In this document: in pieces, positions 35,831 through 47,157 of the stretch
Layout of the letters: every line of letters begins with the position of its first letter
Numbering within the stretch: position 1 is the first letter of the stretch
NCBI GenBank assembly: GCA_003170915.1
Contig: PMYB01000165.1
Location: 1-47,157, forward strand
Direction of reading: 5' to 3'
DNA length: 47,157 nt
DNA from: Bryobacterales bacterium
Lineage (GTDB): Bacteria > Acidobacteriota > Terriglobia > Bryobacterales > Bryobacteraceae
Made by a program: the position numbers and the translations under genes
Notes under the pieces: generated by a model
What the model saw: only the letters and a program-made list of their open reading frames with translations
Databases searched by the model: none
What the model was told of the DNA's origin: nothing

Positions 35831-37615
35831 TCAGGGGTAAGCCTCCGCCTGAACCGTCGTTTCCGGAAGCGTCATGTCGGCGAGGCCCCAGTTTCTCAGA
35901 GTGAAGATCATCGGCGCATTGAACCGGCGCATCCGATCGATCCACTCCATCCAGGTGGCCCATGGGATTTCCGTCACGCCCTTGGCTTCGATGCGGGCGG
36001 CGCGCTCTGCCTCGCCTTCCGGAGTCCAGCCGGCAGCCGAGAGGTGTTCCGTGTGGTAGATGCGCATCGGTTCGGGCAAAACCGCTTCGCCGATTCCAGC
36101 ATGGTGGGCTGCGTAGCAGAACAGCGCGTCGATGTGCATGGGCCAGATCGGAAATTCGGGGTACGCACGAAGGGCAAACCAATCCTCACGCGAAAGCAGC
36201 GTGAAGTCGCCGCAGGCGCTCGTATTCAGGTATGCGGCGTTAGGAATGCGATCGGCTCCCGAGGTGGGCGCTTGCGGATAAGTAGTCCAGTCGACAGGCG
36301 CTTCGGTGTCCAATACTTCCAATAGCCAGTTGATATCGGATGACTCAGGCTTGCTTCCGTCTGCAGAGCTGTTTGACAGTTTGAAACCCAGGTCGAGCGA
36401 AAGATGGTATTCAGCCTGGTCCCGATTCCCGGACACCGCGGGGAGGCGGTCCCCTGCCTGGAACACAACATTCCCGGCCGGATCGGTCAGGTTGATTTCG
36501 AGAGTTTCCAGACTTGAGTCCGGTCCCGGCCGGATCGCGAGTTGAACCGTGCGCGGCTCGGCGGAACGCACAAGGACAGTGGATTCCCGCACGGACTGAG
36601 TGCCCCGTACAAGAGAAACTCCCGCCAGCCACTTTGGCAAGACTTCCCATTTCAGTCCGAATACACGGAGCATCAGAAAACGTGGAGTTCGAGCGAGCGG
36701 AAGTTTGCGGCCCTGAAGCCGGAGCCGAAGTGTGCCGGAAGACAAGTGATCCGGAATATGCAGCCGCAATTTGCACGCTCCGTCCACTTTCGCGGACGCC
36801 AGTACATGCCCAGTCGTGGAAGCCACCTCAACCACAAGCGGCCACCCCCCGGCACTGGGGCCTACCTCCGCGTCAATCAGCAGTCGGGGTGCGGCTTCCG
36901 GTGGCCGCTGAAAAACAATCTCCGCCTCGGGCTCCACCCAGCGGTGCGGCCGCCGGTCCGATTTCTCGATTCCGTGCCAGCCAGTTCCGAGCCACACACC
37001 CTCCCCCGGCTCGACTATATCTTCGTCCTCGAGAACACGCCGGCCGTTGCTCGATAACTTCATTGCTCCCTCGCGGGCAAAAATTCGAAGCATGTGATTT
37101 TCGCAGAAAGCGAGCAGTTCATTCACTGTCGCGCCGGCGGGAATATGACTGGCGACGTCGGTCCGATCCATCCGGTACATCTTCCGGCGCTCCAGACAGC
37201 GCGCTCCCAGGAACTGCATCAGTTCGGCCGAGAATATGATGTCGAGATTTGTGGCGAGCACAAATCGGCCTCGCGCGCGGCGAATGCCCACGTTTTTGGC
37301 GATCATCTGATGCAACGGTATGGTAGCTGAATTCGGCAGGCGATCGTGAACTTCATGGGTTACCTCGATAAAGCGAACTTCGCACGGGCCCATGTCGGGC
37401 GGCCACCGGAGTTCGTCCATCAGCCTGGCGCGATCCGCCGGCGGGTTCCACTCCACGACGATGATTTCGGATGAAAGATTGTATTGTTTCGCCTGGCCGA
37501 TCCAGGAATCGATAAAGGCCTGCATCCGCCCGACCATATTCCCGCCATGATTATCATTCCTGGCGGCAATCACTACCGAGATGTAAGGCGCGGAGCTTTC
37601 CGGGTATGTTGACAT
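35831..37615 (-). CDS. Multidomain glycosyltransferase with an insert between catalytic halves
   Basis: A 594-residue protein. Residues 1-180 form a GT-A-like nucleotide-sugar half: YISVVIAARNDNHGGN, EIIVVEWNPPADR, MIAKNVGIRRARG, LATNLDIIFS. Residues about 205-325 hold a beta-rich module with the marker GWHGIEKSDRRPHRWVEPEAE; about 340-450 is a second, more divergent beta segment. Residues 465-590 carry the other half typical of such enzymes: ACGDFTLLSREDWFALRAYPE, MHIDALFCYAAHHAG, EPMRIYHTEH, GWTPEGE. The ATG at 37615 has AAGGA upstream. Paralogue of the next gene. Role: probably transfer of a sugar in surface polysaccharide synthesis; donor unknown. Confidence 0.72.
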   Translation of the reverse strand: MSTYPESSAPYISVVIAARNDNHGGNMVGRMQAFIDSWIGQAKQYNLSSEIIVVEWNPPADRARLMDELRWPPDMGPCEVRFIEVTHEVHDRLPNSATIPLHQMIAKNVGIRRARGRFVLATNLDIIFSAELMQFLGARCLERRKMYRMDRTDVASHIPAGATVNELLAFCENHMLRIFAREGAMKLSSNGRRVLEDEDIVEPGEGVWLGTGWHGIEKSDRRPHRWVEPEAEIVFQRPPEAAPRLLIDAEVGPSAGGWPLVVEVASTTGHVLASAKVDGACKLRLHIPDHLSSGTLRLRLQGRKLPLARTPRFLMLRVFGLKWEVLPKWLAGVSLVRGTQSVRESTVLVRSAEPRTVQLAIRPGPDSSLETLEINLTDPAGNVVFQAGDRLPAVSGNRDQAEYHLSLDLGFKLSNSSADGSKPESSDINWLLEVLDTEAPVDWTTYPQAPTSGADRIPNAAYLNTSACGDFTLLSREDWFALRAYPEFPIWPMHIDALFCYAAHHAGIGEAVLPEPMRIYHTEHLSAAGWTPEGEAERAARIEAKGVTEIPWATWMEWIDRMRRFNAPMIFTLRNWGLADMTLPETTVQAEAYP

Positions 37616-37628
37616 GATTCGGATTCCT

Positions 37629-39698
37629 TCAACGGCCAGTCTCCGAGCCGCATGCGGTTCTCGCCAGCGCGGTTTCCGGAAAAGTAAGCGTGGCCAGACC
37701 CCAGTCATCCATATTGAAAATCATCGGAGCATGCAGGCTACGCATCTGCGTAATCAACGCCACCAGGTCTTGATAAGACACGGACTGAATGCCTTGTTGC
37801 GAGATGCGGGCATAGAGCTTACCTTCTCCTTCAGGGGTCCACCCAGACCCGGCGCCATGCTCGATGTGATAGATGCGCATCGGTTCCGGCAGGAGTTGCT
37901 CCCGCGCTCCAGCGTGGTGCGCGGCGTAACACAAGATGGAATCGAGATGCATCGAGTAAAACTGGTTCAGCTCCGCGTAGCCTCGAACGTCGCACCAGTG
38001 TTCGCGAGCCATCATGGTGAAGTCGCCGCAAGCGTATATGTGCAGACATACGGGCTTGCCCATTTCGGCAATCACCCGCCGGTATTCCTTCAGATCGGCC
38101 GCCCAATCGATCTCCGTCGGTCGTGATTCCACGGTTACCGCGGTCCACGGTATGACGTGCTCCGGCTCTGCGGACCTACCCGGAGCGTTTCCACCGGCGC
38201 ATCCGCATCCGAAAACTCTAAAGTTGAGGATGCGCGGCTCTCCCGCCACAGGCAGTCCCCCTTCCTTCGTGGTCAGGAAGAGAGCGGTGACTCTTCCGCG
38301 CCACGCTGGAACGGGGACTTTCACGTAGGTCAGTCCATTCACAACCGCCCGCGCCACCACCTCGCCGTTGGAAAGCGCGATCACAAGGTTGAAGGACCGG
38401 TAGCCTACGCCGGGTCCCGGCTCCACCAGCAAGGCCAGGTTGCGCCTCCTGCCGGTAGTCCGCACGACAAGTTCCGCATCCTGGGATACCCAACGAAATC
38501 TTTCGGTGCTCGCATGCTCCAGGCGTTGCCATCCTTTGCCCCAGAATTCAACGCCTGGTCCGAAGATATCGTCCCCCCGCTCGCTCAGCAGGCGCACCGC
38601 CGCCCGCAAAACGGCGGGCCCTTTGAAGAGCATTGACGGAACTCCCAGGCTCGCGACCAGACGCGCCAGCGTCGGGCGAGCCTCCCGGACCACCGAGGCG
38701 AACGGCGCGGGTGCAACCCTTGGCATCTGCTCGGCCCAGTCGCAGCGGAAGACTCGGAAATTGAGAATGCGCGGATCGTGGACCACGGGCCGGCCGCCGT
38801 CCGGCACGCGCAGGCGAAATGATTGAACGCTGTCGTCGGCAGCCGGCGGCAGCCAAAGTTGCAGCTTGGTTCGCCCCGAAACACTCCAGTCCGCCACCAT
38901 CGAACCGTTCGCGTCGAACACCTGCAAGGTCTGCGGGGGCGGACCCACACCCGGTCCGGGTTCGACGTCCAGCAAGATCGCGGGACCCGCTGCCGGGACG
39001 CGGAGCCAGACCTCGGCGTCGTTCTCTATCCAGCGAAATGGCTCTGGCGAATCATACCGCTCCACCACAAACCAACCCCTGCCGAAATGGATACCCGATT
39101 CCGCCCGGGTGATGTCCTGTTCCTCATTCCGCCGGAGGCCGTCCTGAGTCAAGCGGCAAATGCCCTCACGCGCCGACACCCGGATCAAGTGGCTGCCGCA
39201 GTACGCGAGTTGTTCGTCGAGCGTACCATCCACCGGAACGTCGCTCATGACATCGTGCCGATCGATCCTGTACATGCGGCCTCTTTCCAGCCGCCGCGAC
39301 GCCAGAAACCGGACCAGCTCGTCGGAAAACACGATGTCGATGTTGGTTGCCAGGATGAACTCGCCCCGCGCCCGGCGGATTCCGACATTCTTGGCAATCA
39401 TTTGGTACAACGGCAGAGCCGCCGCCTGCCGGTAGCGAGCATGTACTTCGGGTGGCACTTCGATGATGCGCACCTCGCAGGGGCCCGTGTCGCCTGGCCA
39501 GCGAAGCGCCTTCGCCAGCCGGTCGCGCCCGGCCGGAGGATTCCATTCGACGATGATCAGTTCCGAGGAGAGGTTGTGGCGCTTCGCCTGGTTGATCCAG
39601 GCATCCACGAAAACCTGCATTCGCCCTAACAGATTGCCGCCATGGTCGTCGTTCCGAGCCGTCACAACGACCGACAAATAAGGCGCTTCCCGCGCCAT
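37629..39698 (-). CDS. Multidomain glycosyltransferase with two repeated inserts
   Basis: A 689-residue paralogue of the gene that follows it 13 bases downstream. The N-terminal GT-A half (1-180) has YLSVVVTARNDDHGGN, IIVEWNPPAGRDR, NVGIRRARGEFILATNIDIVFS. Two copies of one beta module follow, about 201-320 and 380-497; each has GxGW...ERFRW-type, DAE, VEPGPGVG, and ends DPRILNFRVF or EPRILNFRVF. The C-terminal catalytic half is at 547-672 (ACGDFTMMAREHW, MHLDSILCYAAHHAG, EPMRIYHIEH). ATG 39698 opens the fold; an upstream ATG at 39740 would add 14 residues. Probably surface-glycan synthesis. Confidence 0.72.
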   Translation of the reverse strand: MAREAPYLSVVVTARNDDHGGNLLGRMQVFVDAWINQAKRHNLSSELIIVEWNPPAGRDRLAKALRWPGDTGPCEVRIIEVPPEVHARYRQAAALPLYQMIAKNVGIRRARGEFILATNIDIVFSDELVRFLASRRLERGRMYRIDRHDVMSDVPVDGTLDEQLAYCGSHLIRVSAREGICRLTQDGLRRNEEQDITRAESGIHFGRGWFVVERYDSPEPFRWIENDAEVWLRVPAAGPAILLDVEPGPGVGPPPQTLQVFDANGSMVADWSVSGRTKLQLWLPPAADDSVQSFRLRVPDGGRPVVHDPRILNFRVFRCDWAEQMPRVAPAPFASVVREARPTLARLVASLGVPSMLFKGPAVLRAAVRLLSERGDDIFGPGVEFWGKGWQRLEHASTERFRWVSQDAELVVRTTGRRRNLALLVEPGPGVGYRSFNLVIALSNGEVVARAVVNGLTYVKVPVPAWRGRVTALFLTTKEGGLPVAGEPRILNFRVFGCGCAGGNAPGRSAEPEHVIPWTAVTVESRPTEIDWAADLKEYRRVIAEMGKPVCLHIYACGDFTMMAREHWCDVRGYAELNQFYSMHLDSILCYAAHHAGAREQLLPEPMRIYHIEHGAGSGWTPEGEGKLYARISQQGIQSVSYQDLVALITQMRSLHAPMIFNMDDWGLATLTFPETALARTACGSETGR

Positions 39699-39900: not shown

Positions 39901-40650
39901 TCAAAACCGCGCCTTGAGCGCTTTTCGCTGAAGCCAGATGTCCTTGAGGTTTGCTCGGACAATCCCAGAATCGGGCAGAATGATCCCCAGGCCCGCGGGC
40001 TTCACTTCCCATAACGGCTTGCCAGCCCGGCGGGGTTGATGTTCGGTCTCATCGGTGACGATTTTCGCTCCCATTTGGGCCATTCGAATCATGAATTCCG
40101 GAACGGTAAACCCACTAGTTGAGCTTATGGCCATATTCTTGAGAAAACTGGTACGAAACAGGTTGAAAGCCGAATCGAAATCCCAGACCGGGCACCTGTA
40201 GACGAGATGAACCAATACTCGATGGGTGAGTCCGATAATCTTCCGCTCCCAGGGATCTTTCCTCCGGCGGCGGTTGAAATGGACAAGGTCTGCATCGGTC
40301 TTCCGTTGGATCTCGACGGCGCGAAACAGGTCTTCGTATAAGAACTGGCCATCGATGTCCGTGTGAAACGCAAACTCCTTTTGCGCTTGCGTGAGGCCAA
40401 GAGCGAATGCCGGGCCGTACCCTCTGGTCCCGGGAGGCTGATTGACTGGTCGAATGCGCGGGTTCGCACTGCTAAACTCCGCTAACAACTCGTTGGTCCT
40501 GTCGCTCGGGTGGGGATGGGTCACAACGACCAATTCGTAGTCGTTTGCGATCCTCTCGGCGATATTGACCAGTTGCGGAACGAACCAACGTACATTTTCC
40601 TCTTCGTTATAGGCCAGGCATAGGATACTTAGACTAGGAAGCAGCATCAT
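39901..40650 (-). CDS. Family 2 glycosyltransferase
   Basis: A 249-residue GT2 enzyme of the dolichyl-phosphate-mannose-synthase/ArnC type without membrane anchors. Motifs: SLSILCLAYNEEENV, ELVVVTHPHPSDRT, RGYGPAFALGLTQA, FHTDIDGQFLYED (DxD), DSAFNLFRTSFL. It would transfer a sugar from a nucleotide donor to a lipid or growing glycan. The start could be either of two adjacent ATGs at 40650 and 40647; GAGG seven bases before the second favours 40647. Its start overlaps the end of an epimerase fragment. Confidence 0.83.
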   Translation of the reverse strand: MMLLPSLSILCLAYNEEENVRWFVPQLVNIAERIANDYELVVVTHPHPSDRTNELLAEFSSANPRIRPVNQPPGTRGYGPAFALGLTQAQKEFAFHTDIDGQFLYEDLFRAVEIQRKTDADLVHFNRRRRKDPWERKIIGLTHRVLVHLVYRCPVWDFDSAFNLFRTSFLKNMAISSTSGFTVPEFMIRMAQMGAKIVTDETEHQPRRAGKPLWEVKPAGLGIILPDSGIVRANLKDIWLQRKALKARF

Positions 40651-40995: not shown

Positions 40996-41361
40996 TTGAG
41001 CCTCCCCAGCCGGATTCCGTACATGATGGCCGTCTCCCACATCCCCATCCTGGTTCTGGGGAGCCGCGACACGGGGGCCGCGCGCTTTGTGGAACACTTC
41101 GGTATCGGCGCGGTCGCCGGTCACGAAAAGAAAGCGTTCGTCGAGGCAGTGGACTACATTACCCGCCCCGAAGTGAACCTGGAAATGCGCCGGAAGGCGC
41201 TGACCATGGCTGGCCGGTTTACGGATGTCGGCGCAGCGGAATGGATCTGGCAATCGCTGGCTCGCGGCGAACCTATCGACGGCAGATACGAAGACCTGAT
41301 GTCGCGGGAGAGGCCGGACCTCTCGAGCCTGCTCTCCGTCCGTCGCGTTCCGGGTTCTTAA
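40996..41361 (+). pseudogene. GT-B-like glycosyltransferase, C-terminal fragment
   Basis: About 121 residues beginning LSLPSRIPYMMAVSHIPILV and continuing ARFVEHFGIGAV, LEMRRKALTMAGRF, LARGEPIDGRYEDL. It aligns throughout with the last quarter of the intact gene that follows (LSLPGRILFAAATAHTPILL, ARFVERFGIGVTV, SEMRRKAAAIAGAV, IERGEPADSRFENL). The first 300 or so residues are lacking, including the donor-site start. Similarity begins exactly at TTG 40996. It ends 4 bases before the intact paralogue, so the two were tandem duplicates before the truncation. Confidence 0.8.
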
Positions 41362-41365
41362 CGTT

Positions 41366-42691
41366 ATGCCGGCTCCTGTGTATCAGCGGAATGCGCTTGT
41401 GCGCGAACGGCTGATCGAGCGGATTGGCGCCCTCGGCCCGCGCGAAGTTCATCCATGTGACCCAGACATTGGTCTGGTTACTTCCCCCGACGCTTCGCAA
41501 GATCCCCGGGCGCCCATTCACGCCGTAGTGACGATAAACGAGATCAACGACATGCATGGAACCGGCCCCCTGGTGAAGCGCATCTTCGAGGGCCGGTGCG
41601 GTATTTTCTCAATCCGGTCCAGGGATCATTGGGGTACGCAAGATTTTGGCGACTGGCACGTGAAGATCTCGCAGGAGGGCCGCACCCGTCCCGAATGCTT
41701 CCGGGGAGTCCTGCGGTTTCTGTCCGGCAGGAATGTAAAAAGCGTGACCTGCGTGCCCTTTCTTGCCGAGGAGCTTCTGACATCCATCGCCATAAAGGAG
41801 AGTTTTGGCGTCAAGATGTGCGCTTATATCATGGACGATCAGAACGCGGCGGTGAACGTCACCCCCGACGACTTGATGCGCGAGTTTCTCGAAAAATGCT
41901 CGCTCCGCCTGGCTACGCACCCCGAGCTCCGCGACGCCTACGCGCGGAAGTACGGATTGCCGTTCTATATTCTGCCGGCGGTCGTGCCCGCCGCGCTTGT
42001 TGCAGTGGAGCCGCTGCCGCCGGCGTACGATCCCGAGGCGAAAAGGGGGGCGCTGCTGGGCAGCTTCTGGGACCAGTCGTGGTTCGACCAGCTCTGCGCC
42101 GCGCTGGAGCCATGCCATTATCGGATCGACTGGTACGGCCAGAATCGGTCTCCCTGGCTTAAATTCCCTCCGGAAGACCTGACGCGCGCCGGTATTACAC
42201 CATTCGGGATCCTTCCGGAGGACCGCCTTGCGGTGGAGCTTCGCAAGTATCCCTTTGTGATCGTCCCCTGCGGGGCGCTCGGCGGGAAAGAGACCAACGT
42301 AGGGGTGGCTTCCTTAAGCCTGCCCGGCCGGATTCTATTCGCGGCGGCGACCGCGCACACCCCCATTCTCTTGGTCGGAAGCGACCGCTCGTGTGGGGCC
42401 CGTTTTGTTGAGCGCTTCGGAATCGGAGTGACGGTCCCTTACGATGCGGCCAGGCTCGCCGAGGCTATGCAGCGCTTGTGCGAACCGCAATTGCAGTCCG
42501 AGATGCGGCGGAAGGCCGCTGCGATCGCCGGAGCTGTCTCGGATCGGGGCGTGGTAGACTGGCTGGCGGAATCCATCGAGCGGGGTGAGCCGGCCGATTC
42601 GAGGTTCGAGAACCTGTTTGCCGGAGGATGCCCGGCGCGGGAACCCTCTCGAGACGATGCGGCGTGCGCTGCGACGCCCGGTAGGCAATGA
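41366..42691 (+). CDS. GT-B-like glycosyltransferase
   Basis: A 441-residue protein that looks like a GT-B fold enzyme without close resemblance to a numbered family. Residues 50-230 are the acceptor-side half (VVTINEINDMHGTGPLVKRI, VTCVPFLAEELLTSI, MCAYIMDDQN). Residues 235-420 are the donor-side half: GALLGSFWDQSWFDQL, PEDRLAVELRKYPFVIVPCG, and ARFVERFGIGVTVPYDAA, the usual place for nucleotide-sugar contact. Likely part of the polysaccharide pathway formed with the neighbouring fucose and methyltransferase genes. The extra C-terminal 25 residues are probably disordered. Confidence 0.68.
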   Translation: MPAPVYQRNALVRERLIERIGALGPREVHPCDPDIGLVTSPDASQDPRAPIHAVVTINEINDMHGTGPLVKRIFEGRCGIFSIRSRDHWGTQDFGDWHVKISQEGRTRPECFRGVLRFLSGRNVKSVTCVPFLAEELLTSIAIKESFGVKMCAYIMDDQNAAVNVTPDDLMREFLEKCSLRLATHPELRDAYARKYGLPFYILPAVVPAALVAVEPLPPAYDPEAKRGALLGSFWDQSWFDQLCAALEPCHYRIDWYGQNRSPWLKFPPEDLTRAGITPFGILPEDRLAVELRKYPFVIVPCGALGGKETNVGVASLSLPGRILFAAATAHTPILLVGSDRSCGARFVERFGIGVTVPYDAARLAEAMQRLCEPQLQSEMRRKAAAIAGAVSDRGVVDWLAESIERGEPADSRFENLFAGGCPAREPSRDDAACAATPGRQ

Positions 42692-45017: not shown

Positions 45018-45962
45018 ATGAAACAGGATCTGAAATCCAAGCGCATCCTGGTCACCGGGGGCGCCGGCTTCCTTGGCTCTCACATTGTGGAACGGCTGCG
45101 GCAAATCGGATGCAGCCGGATGGCTGCGCCCCGCCATAAAGATTGCGATCTCACGCGTGAGGATGATATCGAAAAGCTGTTTCGCGAGTTTCATCCCGAA
45201 CTGGTGGTTCACGCCGCCGCCTTGGTTGGCGGCATCGGCGCGAATCGGGACAACCCCGGACGATTCTTTTACGAGAACGCCCTGATGGGAATTCAGTTGA
45301 TTGAGGGCTGCCGCCGTCATGGAGTAGAAAAGGCGGTTGTGCTGGGCACCATCTGTGCTTATCCCAAGTTCACGCCCGTGCCATTCCGCGAGGAAGCCCT
45401 CTGGGACGGCTACCCCGAAGAAACCAACGCTCCCTACGGCATCGCCAAGAAGGCGCTCTTGGTACAGTGTCAAGCATACCGGCGGCAATACGGAATGAAT
45501 GCAGTTTACCTGTTGCCCGTAAACCTGTACGGGCCGCGCGATAATTTCGATCCGGATTCGTCTCACGTGATCCCCGCATTGATCCGCAAATGTGTGGAGG
45601 CCCGCCGGCGCGGAGCCGGCGAAATCACCTTGTGGGGCGATGGCTCGCCGACACGCGAGTTTCTATACGTTGCCGACGCCGCTGAGGCCATAGTGGCTGC
45701 CGCGGAGTCCTACGATGGCGCCGATCCGGTCAATATCGGGAGTGGCGAAGAAATATCGATCCGCGATTTGGCGGACAGGATTGCGCTGCTGACCGCATTT
45801 ACGGGCCGGATTGCGTGGGACATAACCAAGCCCAACGGGCAACCGCGCCGGTGCCTGGATGTAACCCGCGCGGAGCGTGAATTTGGATTCCGGGCGCACA
45901 CCAACCTGGACGCCGGATTAAGAGCCACGGTCGATTGGTATCTGGCGACGACCGGCGCTTAA
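45018..45962 (+). CDS. fcl: GDP-L-fucose synthase
   Basis: A 314-residue epimerase-reductase that converts the GMD product into GDP-L-fucose with NADPH. Motifs: [55 protein letters not shown], catalytic Tyr and Lys in [35 protein letters not shown]. It lies 22 bases after gmd, giving a complete GDP-fucose route. The last bases overlap the convergent ABC ATPase gene by four bases (shared TTAA). Confidence 0.93.
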
Positions 45963-46645
45963 CCTACCGGCCCGGCATAAGCCTCAAGGACCTCGGCCGG
46001 AGGCCCTTGCAGCGGCATCTTGCCATGGTCCAGCCAAATGGCGCGGTCGCAGAGTTGCCGGACTGTGTCTCCACCATGGGATACAAACAGCAGAGTCTTG
46101 CCTGCCTGTTTGAACTGCCGGATTCTGTCGAAGCACTTCACTTGAAAGCGCTGATCGCCCACCCCCAGGACTTCATCGATGATCAGTATGTCCGGGTCCA
46201 CGTGAACCGCCACCGAAAATGCCAGGCGCATGATCATTCCACTGGAGTAGGTTCGAACCGGATCGTCGATGAAGTCGCGGATTTCGGAGAAATCGACGAT
46301 GCTCTCCAACACCTGGCCTGTCCTGCTTCGGCTCAGCCCCAGCAACGATGTATTTAGCCGGACGTTCTCCAGCCCCGTGAGGTCGGTGTGGAATCCCGAG
46401 CCGAGTTCCAACAGCGCCGCGACGCGTCCTCGTACCGCAACCAAGCCTTCCGAAGGCTTGCACAGGCCCGCTGCCATGCCGAGCAGCGTACTCTTGCCGG
46501 CTCCGTTTCGTCCGATCACGGCCATGCTTTCGCCCTGATTCAAGCGGAAGGAGACGTCCTTCAAAGCATAGAAAACATCTCTTTTCCGCTGCTTGAATCG
46601 ATCCAGCAGGTGGCTCCGCAGAAGTTTGGCCCCGTCTCTCTTGGA
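45959..46645 (-). pseudogene. Polysaccharide ABC exporter ATPase (Wzt/TagH type), start missing
   Basis: From about 46645 the frame reads [40 protein letters not shown] and continues to the end. Walker A GRNGAGKST, signature YSSGMIMRLAFS (the variant usual in Wzt/TagH), Walker B ILIIDEVLGVGD and switch His in LFVSHGG are intact. It ends without a Wzt C-terminal sugar-binding domain. The normal first 15-30 residues and start codon are absent, because upstream sequence turns into the permease gene in another frame. The ATPase core is undamaged; without a native start it is probably not made normally. Confidence 0.75.
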
Positions 46646-46956
46646 ATGGGGACACGCTTCATGAGCGCCGCATTGTCGATGAGCGAACTGGTTCCCGTGC
46701 TCCAGGCTAGAGTGAAAAAATTGAAGGGGACCAGTCCACACAATACAAAGACGGGGAACTGCGGCCTGTGGCTCGGAAAGATCTTGGTGAAAACGAAGGT
46801 CAGCGCAGCCATTGTCACCAAAGGATTCAGCAACGACCACAGAACTCCAAGGGACATGTTGCGGACCGGACCTTGAAATCCTTCTGAATCAGGTTGCTCA
46901 ACAGAAAACCGTAGTCGCCATTCCACACAGGGCGTTCTTCCCGGCCTGATTATCAT
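46640..46956 (-). pseudogene. Polysaccharide ABC exporter permease (Wzm type), truncated and frameshifted
   Basis: ATG 46956 begins MIIRPGR, a typical start. The frame then changes: [24 protein letters not shown] is read in a second frame, and near 46868 the first frame resumes with [50 protein letters not shown] and [13 protein letters not shown]. At 46640-46645 it breaks off in the PRE motif and passes into the ATPase. Only about 100 of some 270 residues remain. Two small indels plus one large deletion make this non-functional as read. Confidence 0.75.
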
Positions 46957-47157
46957 GACCGCAGTGCGAAATCCGACGAGACCTGGAAATCCGTATTGTA
47001 CCGCGCGGCGTTTTATGTGCCAGCGCACCGGACCCGGATGCGCGAGGGGTCCGCCCCTAGCGCCGCCGCGGAAGCCGGTCAGAGCGGAAATCTTGGAAGA
47101 TACATCCGCAGGTATGGCAGATGCGTGGAAATCCCGTATGATCCGGAAACTGGATCT
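46957..47157. other. Window edge, no gene recognised
   Basis: Two hundred bases upstream of the permease remnant. A short minus-strand frame open to the window edge reads [20 protein letters not shown] and stops near 47077; it could be the end of an upstream gene but matches nothing recognised. Confidence 0.3.

Follow-up and report, generated by a model that had tools for sequence, protein, structure and literature searches.

Beta modules inserted into a GT-A glycosyltransferase family: a tandem gene pair of Bryobacterales

The tandem pair and its domains

We analysed two adjacent genes in a 47,157-nucleotide stretch of DNA (the window; contig PMYB01000165.1 of assembly GCA_003170915.1) from a Bryobacterales bacterium. 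Both are intact open reading frames (ORFs) on the minus strand and together form one tandem pair: the first gene, P0002 (37629-39698; 689 amino acids, aa), encodes a predicted GT-A glycosyltransferase with two inserted beta modules, and the second, P0001 (35831-37615), encodes one with a single beta module and a decayed second one. The ORF of P0001 runs from 35831 to 37618 (595 aa) and has an ATG at 37615, preceded by an AAGGA sequence that resembles a ribosome site.

Hidden Markov models (HMMs) of the two enzyme halves and a profile of the module delimited the parts of each protein, all of them encoded on the minus strand. In P0002, the N-terminal half (residues 5-185; 39144-39686) carries the motifs ARNDDHGGN, VEWNPP, RRARG and TNIDI, the last being the DxD-type motif; it is followed by module 1 (residues 195-321; 38736-39116; E 2.3e-46, 153.6 bits), module 2 (residues 380-498; 38205-38561; E 1.9e-37, 124.9 bits) and the C-terminal half (residues 550-682; 37653-38051), with ACGDF as the G-loop, HLD at the xED position and YHIEH as the C-terminal His motif. 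In P0001, the N-terminal half (residues 10-189; 37052-37591) and module 1 (residues 200-324; 36647-37021; E 5.2e-40, 133.4 bits) were modelled by AlphaFold2 with a predicted local distance difference test score (pLDDT) of about 95 and about 96, respectively, and the C-terminal half (residues 462-593; 35840-36235) with one mostly >90. Between them lies the remnant of a second module (residues ~346-440; 36299-36583), which the module profile matched with only 7.3 bits (residues 346-387) and which was modelled as beta strands at 356-438 with pLDDT mostly 45-70, being too decayed to model well. The N-half HMM scored E 2e-104 in P0002 and 9e-98 in P0001, and the C-half HMM 1e-66 and 7e-65, well outside what chance would give; both proteins are among the sequences used to build these HMMs, and independent relatives still reach 1e-106.

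An earlier sequence-only reading of the window had proposed that in both paralogues the two halves of one GT-A enzyme are separated by 280-370 residues of beta-rich sequence. This was essentially right: the HMM boundaries give inserts of 272 aa (P0001) and 364 aa (P0002), and the insert of P0001 was modelled as beta strands at 208-438 with almost no helix. The genome encodes a third paralogue on another contig (G000:C96:884-3238), whose insert is longer still.

Relatives, conserved motifs and models of the GT-A fold

We scanned the genomes of 84,980 species and found 73 loci (numbered L below) with 85 genes that carry both halves. In 52 of the 85 the halves lie only 17-121 residues apart with no module between them; 19 genes have one module (gap 175-266 residues) and 14 have two or more (368-477 residues). 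The genes with no module are spread over Thermodesulfobacteriota, Bacteroidota, Bacillota (Clostridium, Heliobacterium), Alphaproteobacteria, Planctomycetota, Chloroflexota, other Acidobacteriota and further groups, and their products hold both halves within one domain of 330-380 aa, so that uninterrupted relatives, the search for which the sequence-only reading had suggested, do exist. The junction is identical in every inserted member: a hairpin (..IRxxxREGxxxL..) leads to the insert, or to a short loop where there is none, and then to LHTNACGDFTL.

The motifs that had been quoted for the two halves were found in P0001 and P0002 and are near-invariant across 68 homologues from many phyla. 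In the alignment of these 68 sequences, the NxD form of the DxD-type motif (N124 in 66, D126 in all), the G-loop (G470 and D471 in all), the xED Asp (D497 in all) and two His residues (H522 and H525, each in 67) stand out, and E488 is also near-invariant. Their order is that of the published GT-A core (PMC7185993). In that core, hypervariable region 2 (HV2) is found between strands beta6 and beta7, ahead of the G-loop, and in known families it contains residues for acceptor specificity (PMC7185993). By motif order, and not by superposed coordinates, the site of the inserts, immediately before the G-loop (ACGDF), would correspond to HV2.

AlphaFold2 gave the same core for P0001 (model m50aaca37c3b3; pLDDT 87.3, predicted TM-score (pTM) 0.83) and for the uninterrupted relative at L050 (pLDDT 89.4, pTM 0.86). 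Secondary structure matches on both sides of the junction, with a hairpin at 173-185 and a strand at 253-257 in L050 and a hairpin at 176-188 and a strand at 472-476 in P0001; the L050 linker (186-245), which stands where the modules would be, was modelled as mostly disordered. With Foldseek, the L050 model aligned over 317-400 columns with the chondroitin polymerase K4CP (E 1.8e-8), GalNAc-T2, GlfT2, WrtF and SpsA. The P0001 model aligned over about 160 columns with the same kinds of GT-A enzyme, a short alignment that is expected because the insert breaks collinearity.

The uninterrupted relatives, the AlphaFold2 models and the whole-length Foldseek matches of L050 support the proposal of one GT-A enzyme interrupted in mid-sequence, and a family with one GT-A fold, one conserved split junction and mobile beta modules in variable number is strongly supported. 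We regard it as almost certain that P0001 and P0002 are each one metal-dependent GT-A enzyme, split at HV2 by one to three inserted modules that resemble carbohydrate-binding modules (CBMs), with the two halves forming a single active site. Two separate, unrelated domains with a fortuitous likeness to GT-A, the outcome that would have refuted the proposal, did not appear in the models, and this reading was rejected because uninterrupted relatives carry both halves in one domain of 330-380 aa, with structural matches to GT-A enzymes over its whole length; we hold it to be extremely improbable.

Profile searches assigned the family to no existing model. P0001 and P0002 matched no Pfam family at E<=1, and neither Pfam, NCBIfam and PHROGs (both proteins) nor a sequence search of the Protein Data Bank (PDB; P0001) gave anything useful; the lone NCBIfam match, to an aminotransferase (E 0.049), was set aside as noise. 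For the CAZy families GT2 and GT49 (profiles PF00535, PF13896), both proteins fell below the curated cut-off and weak, scattered matches were seen in relatives only: Glyco_transf_49 in 7 members (best 5.5e-5) and Glycos_transf_2 in 6 members (best 0.023). Searching PDB sequences with profiles of the module and of the core gave no real match either, only designed repeat proteins that appeared by chance at E>0.1, and phage records contained no homologue. Two remote "hypothetical proteins" on Azospirillum plasmids do match. The interrupted-enzyme family thus has no Pfam, NCBIfam or PHROG model, and the GT-A family and its polysaccharide-associated beta module are both widespread and both without a Pfam model.

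The inserted module and its history

The unit of insertion is an all-beta module of about 125 residues with the consensus GxGWxxxE...FRW...DPRxLNFRVF and near-invariant positions G15, W16, E20, R29, W30, P56, R117, L119 and R122. There are two copies in P0002, one and the decayed remnant in P0001, and in the longest relatives a third, weak one. The module of P0001, all-beta at pLDDT ~96, matched with Foldseek the CBM BT0996-C (7zvo; E 2e-4, with a TM-score (TMt) of only 0.41), the closest solved high-probability fold to the P0001 model outside glycosyltransferases; no sequence similarity to it was detected. BT0996-C is an appended pectin-binding CBM of a pectin-degrading enzyme (7zvo; PMC9843283). 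In profile searches the module showed no sequence similarity to PDB entries, and no Pfam family covers it.

The same module is also present in other places in the Acidobacteriota, with matches at E<=1e-5 in 51 of the 101 genomes of the family, many of the weaker ones distant. Among 46 host proteins it is fused to methyltransferases (9), radical-SAM enzymes (7) and PMT_2 transferases (4), and further to a Wzy_C O-antigen ligase, a sulfatase and a hydroxylase, often at the C-terminus. As a side observation, the beta module is thus a widespread acidobacterial accessory domain on diverse enzymes (L099-L156).

In a tree of the GT-A core, the inserted members form one clade (ultrafast bootstrap 94, approximate likelihood-ratio test 74; 99/96 without the Planctomycetia member), which consists nearly entirely of Bryobacterales and in which 35 of 36 members kept the module. 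The exception, L014 (the same ORF as L050), is nested within the clade and represents a loss of the insert. Repeated independent acquisition is not required, because the inserted members share one clade; there may have been a second origin in the Planctomycetota members L047 and L058, of which L058 was too incomplete for the core tree. In the module tree, which has a short alignment and weak backbone support, most second modules form one clade (95/94) apart from the first modules; therefore the second copy is old, with probable loss or decay in the line that led to P0001. P0002 and P0001 stand in the same order as a tandem pair at L025, L026, L027, L028 and L031, where the P0002 orthologues have two modules, and probably also at L034; at L046, the P0001 orthologue is paired with a different paralogue. 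The record L033, labelled as a metagenome-assembled genome of Acidimicrobiia, has an ORF length, HMM coordinates and scores identical to those of L013, a genome of the same family, and is probably mislabelled.

Possible roles of the modules, precedents and genomic setting

Near the pair, the window encodes a GT2 enzyme (39901-40650), a transferase-like protein of 441 aa with no Pfam hit (41366-42691), an FkbM methyltransferase, a GDP-mannose 4,6-dehydratase, a second epimerase/reductase and an ABC exporter ATPase. Methyltransferases, UDP-glucose/GDP-mannose dehydrogenases, GDP-mannose dehydratases and GT2 enzymes also adjoin the inserted and the uninterrupted relatives alike, and ABC-2 transporters are found among the neighbours of inserted relatives. 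Because of these kinds of neighbours, in the window and around relatives, the setting is surface-polysaccharide synthesis. Tandem gene pairs are numerous, in Bacteroidota (with no module) and in Bryobacterales, and three loci encode two fused uninterrupted GT-A domains of the family in one polypeptide (L060, 7239-13460; L064, 7983-11171; L071, 5013-6845; all plus strand), which suggests that the enzymes work in pairs.

We think it fairly probable that these enzymes are surface-polysaccharide transferases with glycan-binding modules in the acceptor loop. The N-terminal Rossmann half, with its NxD motif, would handle the nucleotide-sugar and the metal, and the C-terminal half would contribute the G-loop, the likely catalytic base (Asp at the xED position) and the C-terminal His residues. 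Most likely the modules, projecting from the loop on the acceptor side, would keep the growing surface polysaccharide beside the active site, where they might position the chain end or raise the affinity for long acceptors. Binding of the acceptor glycan was one of two suggestions of the sequence-only reading, and its support is indirect: we infer it from the position in the acceptor loop, the fusion of the module to other glycan-acting enzymes and its CBM-like fold. The enzymes of the tandem pair, in a polysaccharide cluster that has an ABC exporter, probably attach sugars one after the other or in alternation; towards the two proposals together, a held chain and a pair of enzymes extending it, we lean somewhat. 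Several points weigh against this picture: the Foldseek match of P0001 alone spans about the length of one half, so that the placement of the C-terminal half in P0001 is predicted from homology together with the model of L050; the module resembles a CBM only weakly in structure and has no identified sugar-binding site; and its near-invariant W, R and E residues may be structural.

The main rival, which we consider unlikely, is that the modules would serve mainly as oligomerisation or assembly domains that pair P0002 with P0001, by analogy with DUF1975. This all-beta domain, inserted in the acceptor-binding part of bacterial glycosyltransferases (SdgA/SdgB, TarM, GtfA/GtfB), drives hetero- and homodimers and in SdgB binds the acceptor too (PMC8561734). 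The neighbourhood of P0002 and P0001 is conserved with distinct module counts at L025-L028 and L031, and the second module is decayed in P0001 and kept in P0002. However, the tandem pairs of Bacteroidota have no module at all, which shows that enzymes can be paired without one; modules are also present in many members encoded by single genes and on unrelated enzymes that act on glycans. Since the SdgB insert both binds the acceptor and dimerises, glycan binding and dimerisation are not exclusive.

That the modules are neutral decoration, a tolerated insertion in an already variable loop, seems rather improbable. HV2 tolerates wide variation (gaps of 17-121 aa even without modules), one member reverted to no insert and module 2 decayed in P0001, but all except one of the 36 members of the inserted clade retained the module, and its conserved residues are strongly so. 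Still more doubtful is a ruler, the second suggestion of the sequence-only reading, in which the number of modules would determine how long a polymer is made or at what length it is capped. Module number does step through 0, 1, 2 and 3 at one fixed site, and the cluster in the window encodes an export system of the ABC-transporter type; in known systems of this type, chain length is controlled in the cytoplasm. The inserts, however, contain disordered linkers and decayed modules, unlike a rigid spacer, the close relative L014/L050 lost the whole insert, and a role as polymerase or terminator is only hypothetical for this family.

The acceptor specificity of GT-A enzymes comes from loops grafted on a constant core. 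In this family an entire module, probably a beta-sandwich, is grafted at the main acceptor loop; close relatives carry between 0 and about 3 copies of it at a single conserved position, and one of them has lost it. As natural homologues with and without the insert exist, the contribution of the module to acceptor choice or product length can be tested directly by comparison. We would add only as speculation that, in one lineage, a movable, duplicable glycan-binding module came to sit in the acceptor loop of an otherwise widespread GT-A enzyme and that acceptor length or processivity is tuned by how many copies (0-3) are present; if true, nature would here have titrated a binding domain inserted in a glycosyltransferase.

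We know of no beta-sandwich inserted at HV2 in K4CP, GalNAc-T2 or SpsA. These enzymes (GT2/GT27 type; E. coli K4CP, 2z86/2z87) share the fold over both halves, with the DxD-type motif, G-loop, xED-position Asp and C-terminal His, but sequence identity is about 11-15%. In GalNAc-Ts, a lectin domain is appended at the C-terminus of the GT-A enzyme (PMC9296478). The closest precedent for a GT-A catalytic domain interrupted in mid-sequence is PGAP4, a Golgi GPI-GalNAc transferase with a split GT-A fold whose parts pack together and whose insert was proposed to bring the acceptor close (PMC5785973). In this eukaryotic Golgi enzyme two transmembrane helices form the insert, whereas the insert of P0001 was modelled as beta strands, and the bacterial inserts are soluble, probable beta-sandwich modules of variable copy number with insert-free relatives. 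The sequence-only reading was correct in calling the insertion unusual, but with HV2 a known variable site and PGAP4 a split GT-A enzyme, it is not unprecedented. The DUF1975 enzymes, which also occur as tandem pairs, have the GT-B fold, whereas the structural matches of P0001 and L050 are GT-A, and a Pfam search found no domain, DUF1975 included, in the inserts of P0001 and P0002. Split GT-A folds, beta inserts in GT-B and appended lectins in GT-A are thus already known; a beta-sandwich in the HV2 loop of a GT-A enzyme appears to be new, no report of it having been found in a limited full-text literature search.

Several further genes were noted. A protein of 1050-1490 aa with a distant, apparently uninterrupted GT-A member of the family (E 1e-8 to 1e-14) at or near its N-terminus is encoded elsewhere in the same genome (L009, contig C67, 1766-5041, plus strand), where its C-terminal part reads like more beta modules, and next to or near the interrupted enzyme at L030 (10319-13471), L035 (11862-15254), L040 (1677-4823), L048 (9002-13480) and L075 (759-3911). 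In the window, a 121-aa ORF (40996-41361, plus strand) is very similar to the C-terminus of the 441-aa product of the gene next to it and is apparently the remnant of a tandem duplicate. The Wzt-like ABC exporter ATPase ORF (45959-47157, minus strand) is without a normal start and directly follows, in another frame, a shortened N-terminal part of an ABC-2 membrane protein; next to the intact neighbour genes of L022, this looks like a broken exporter or a chimeric assembly.

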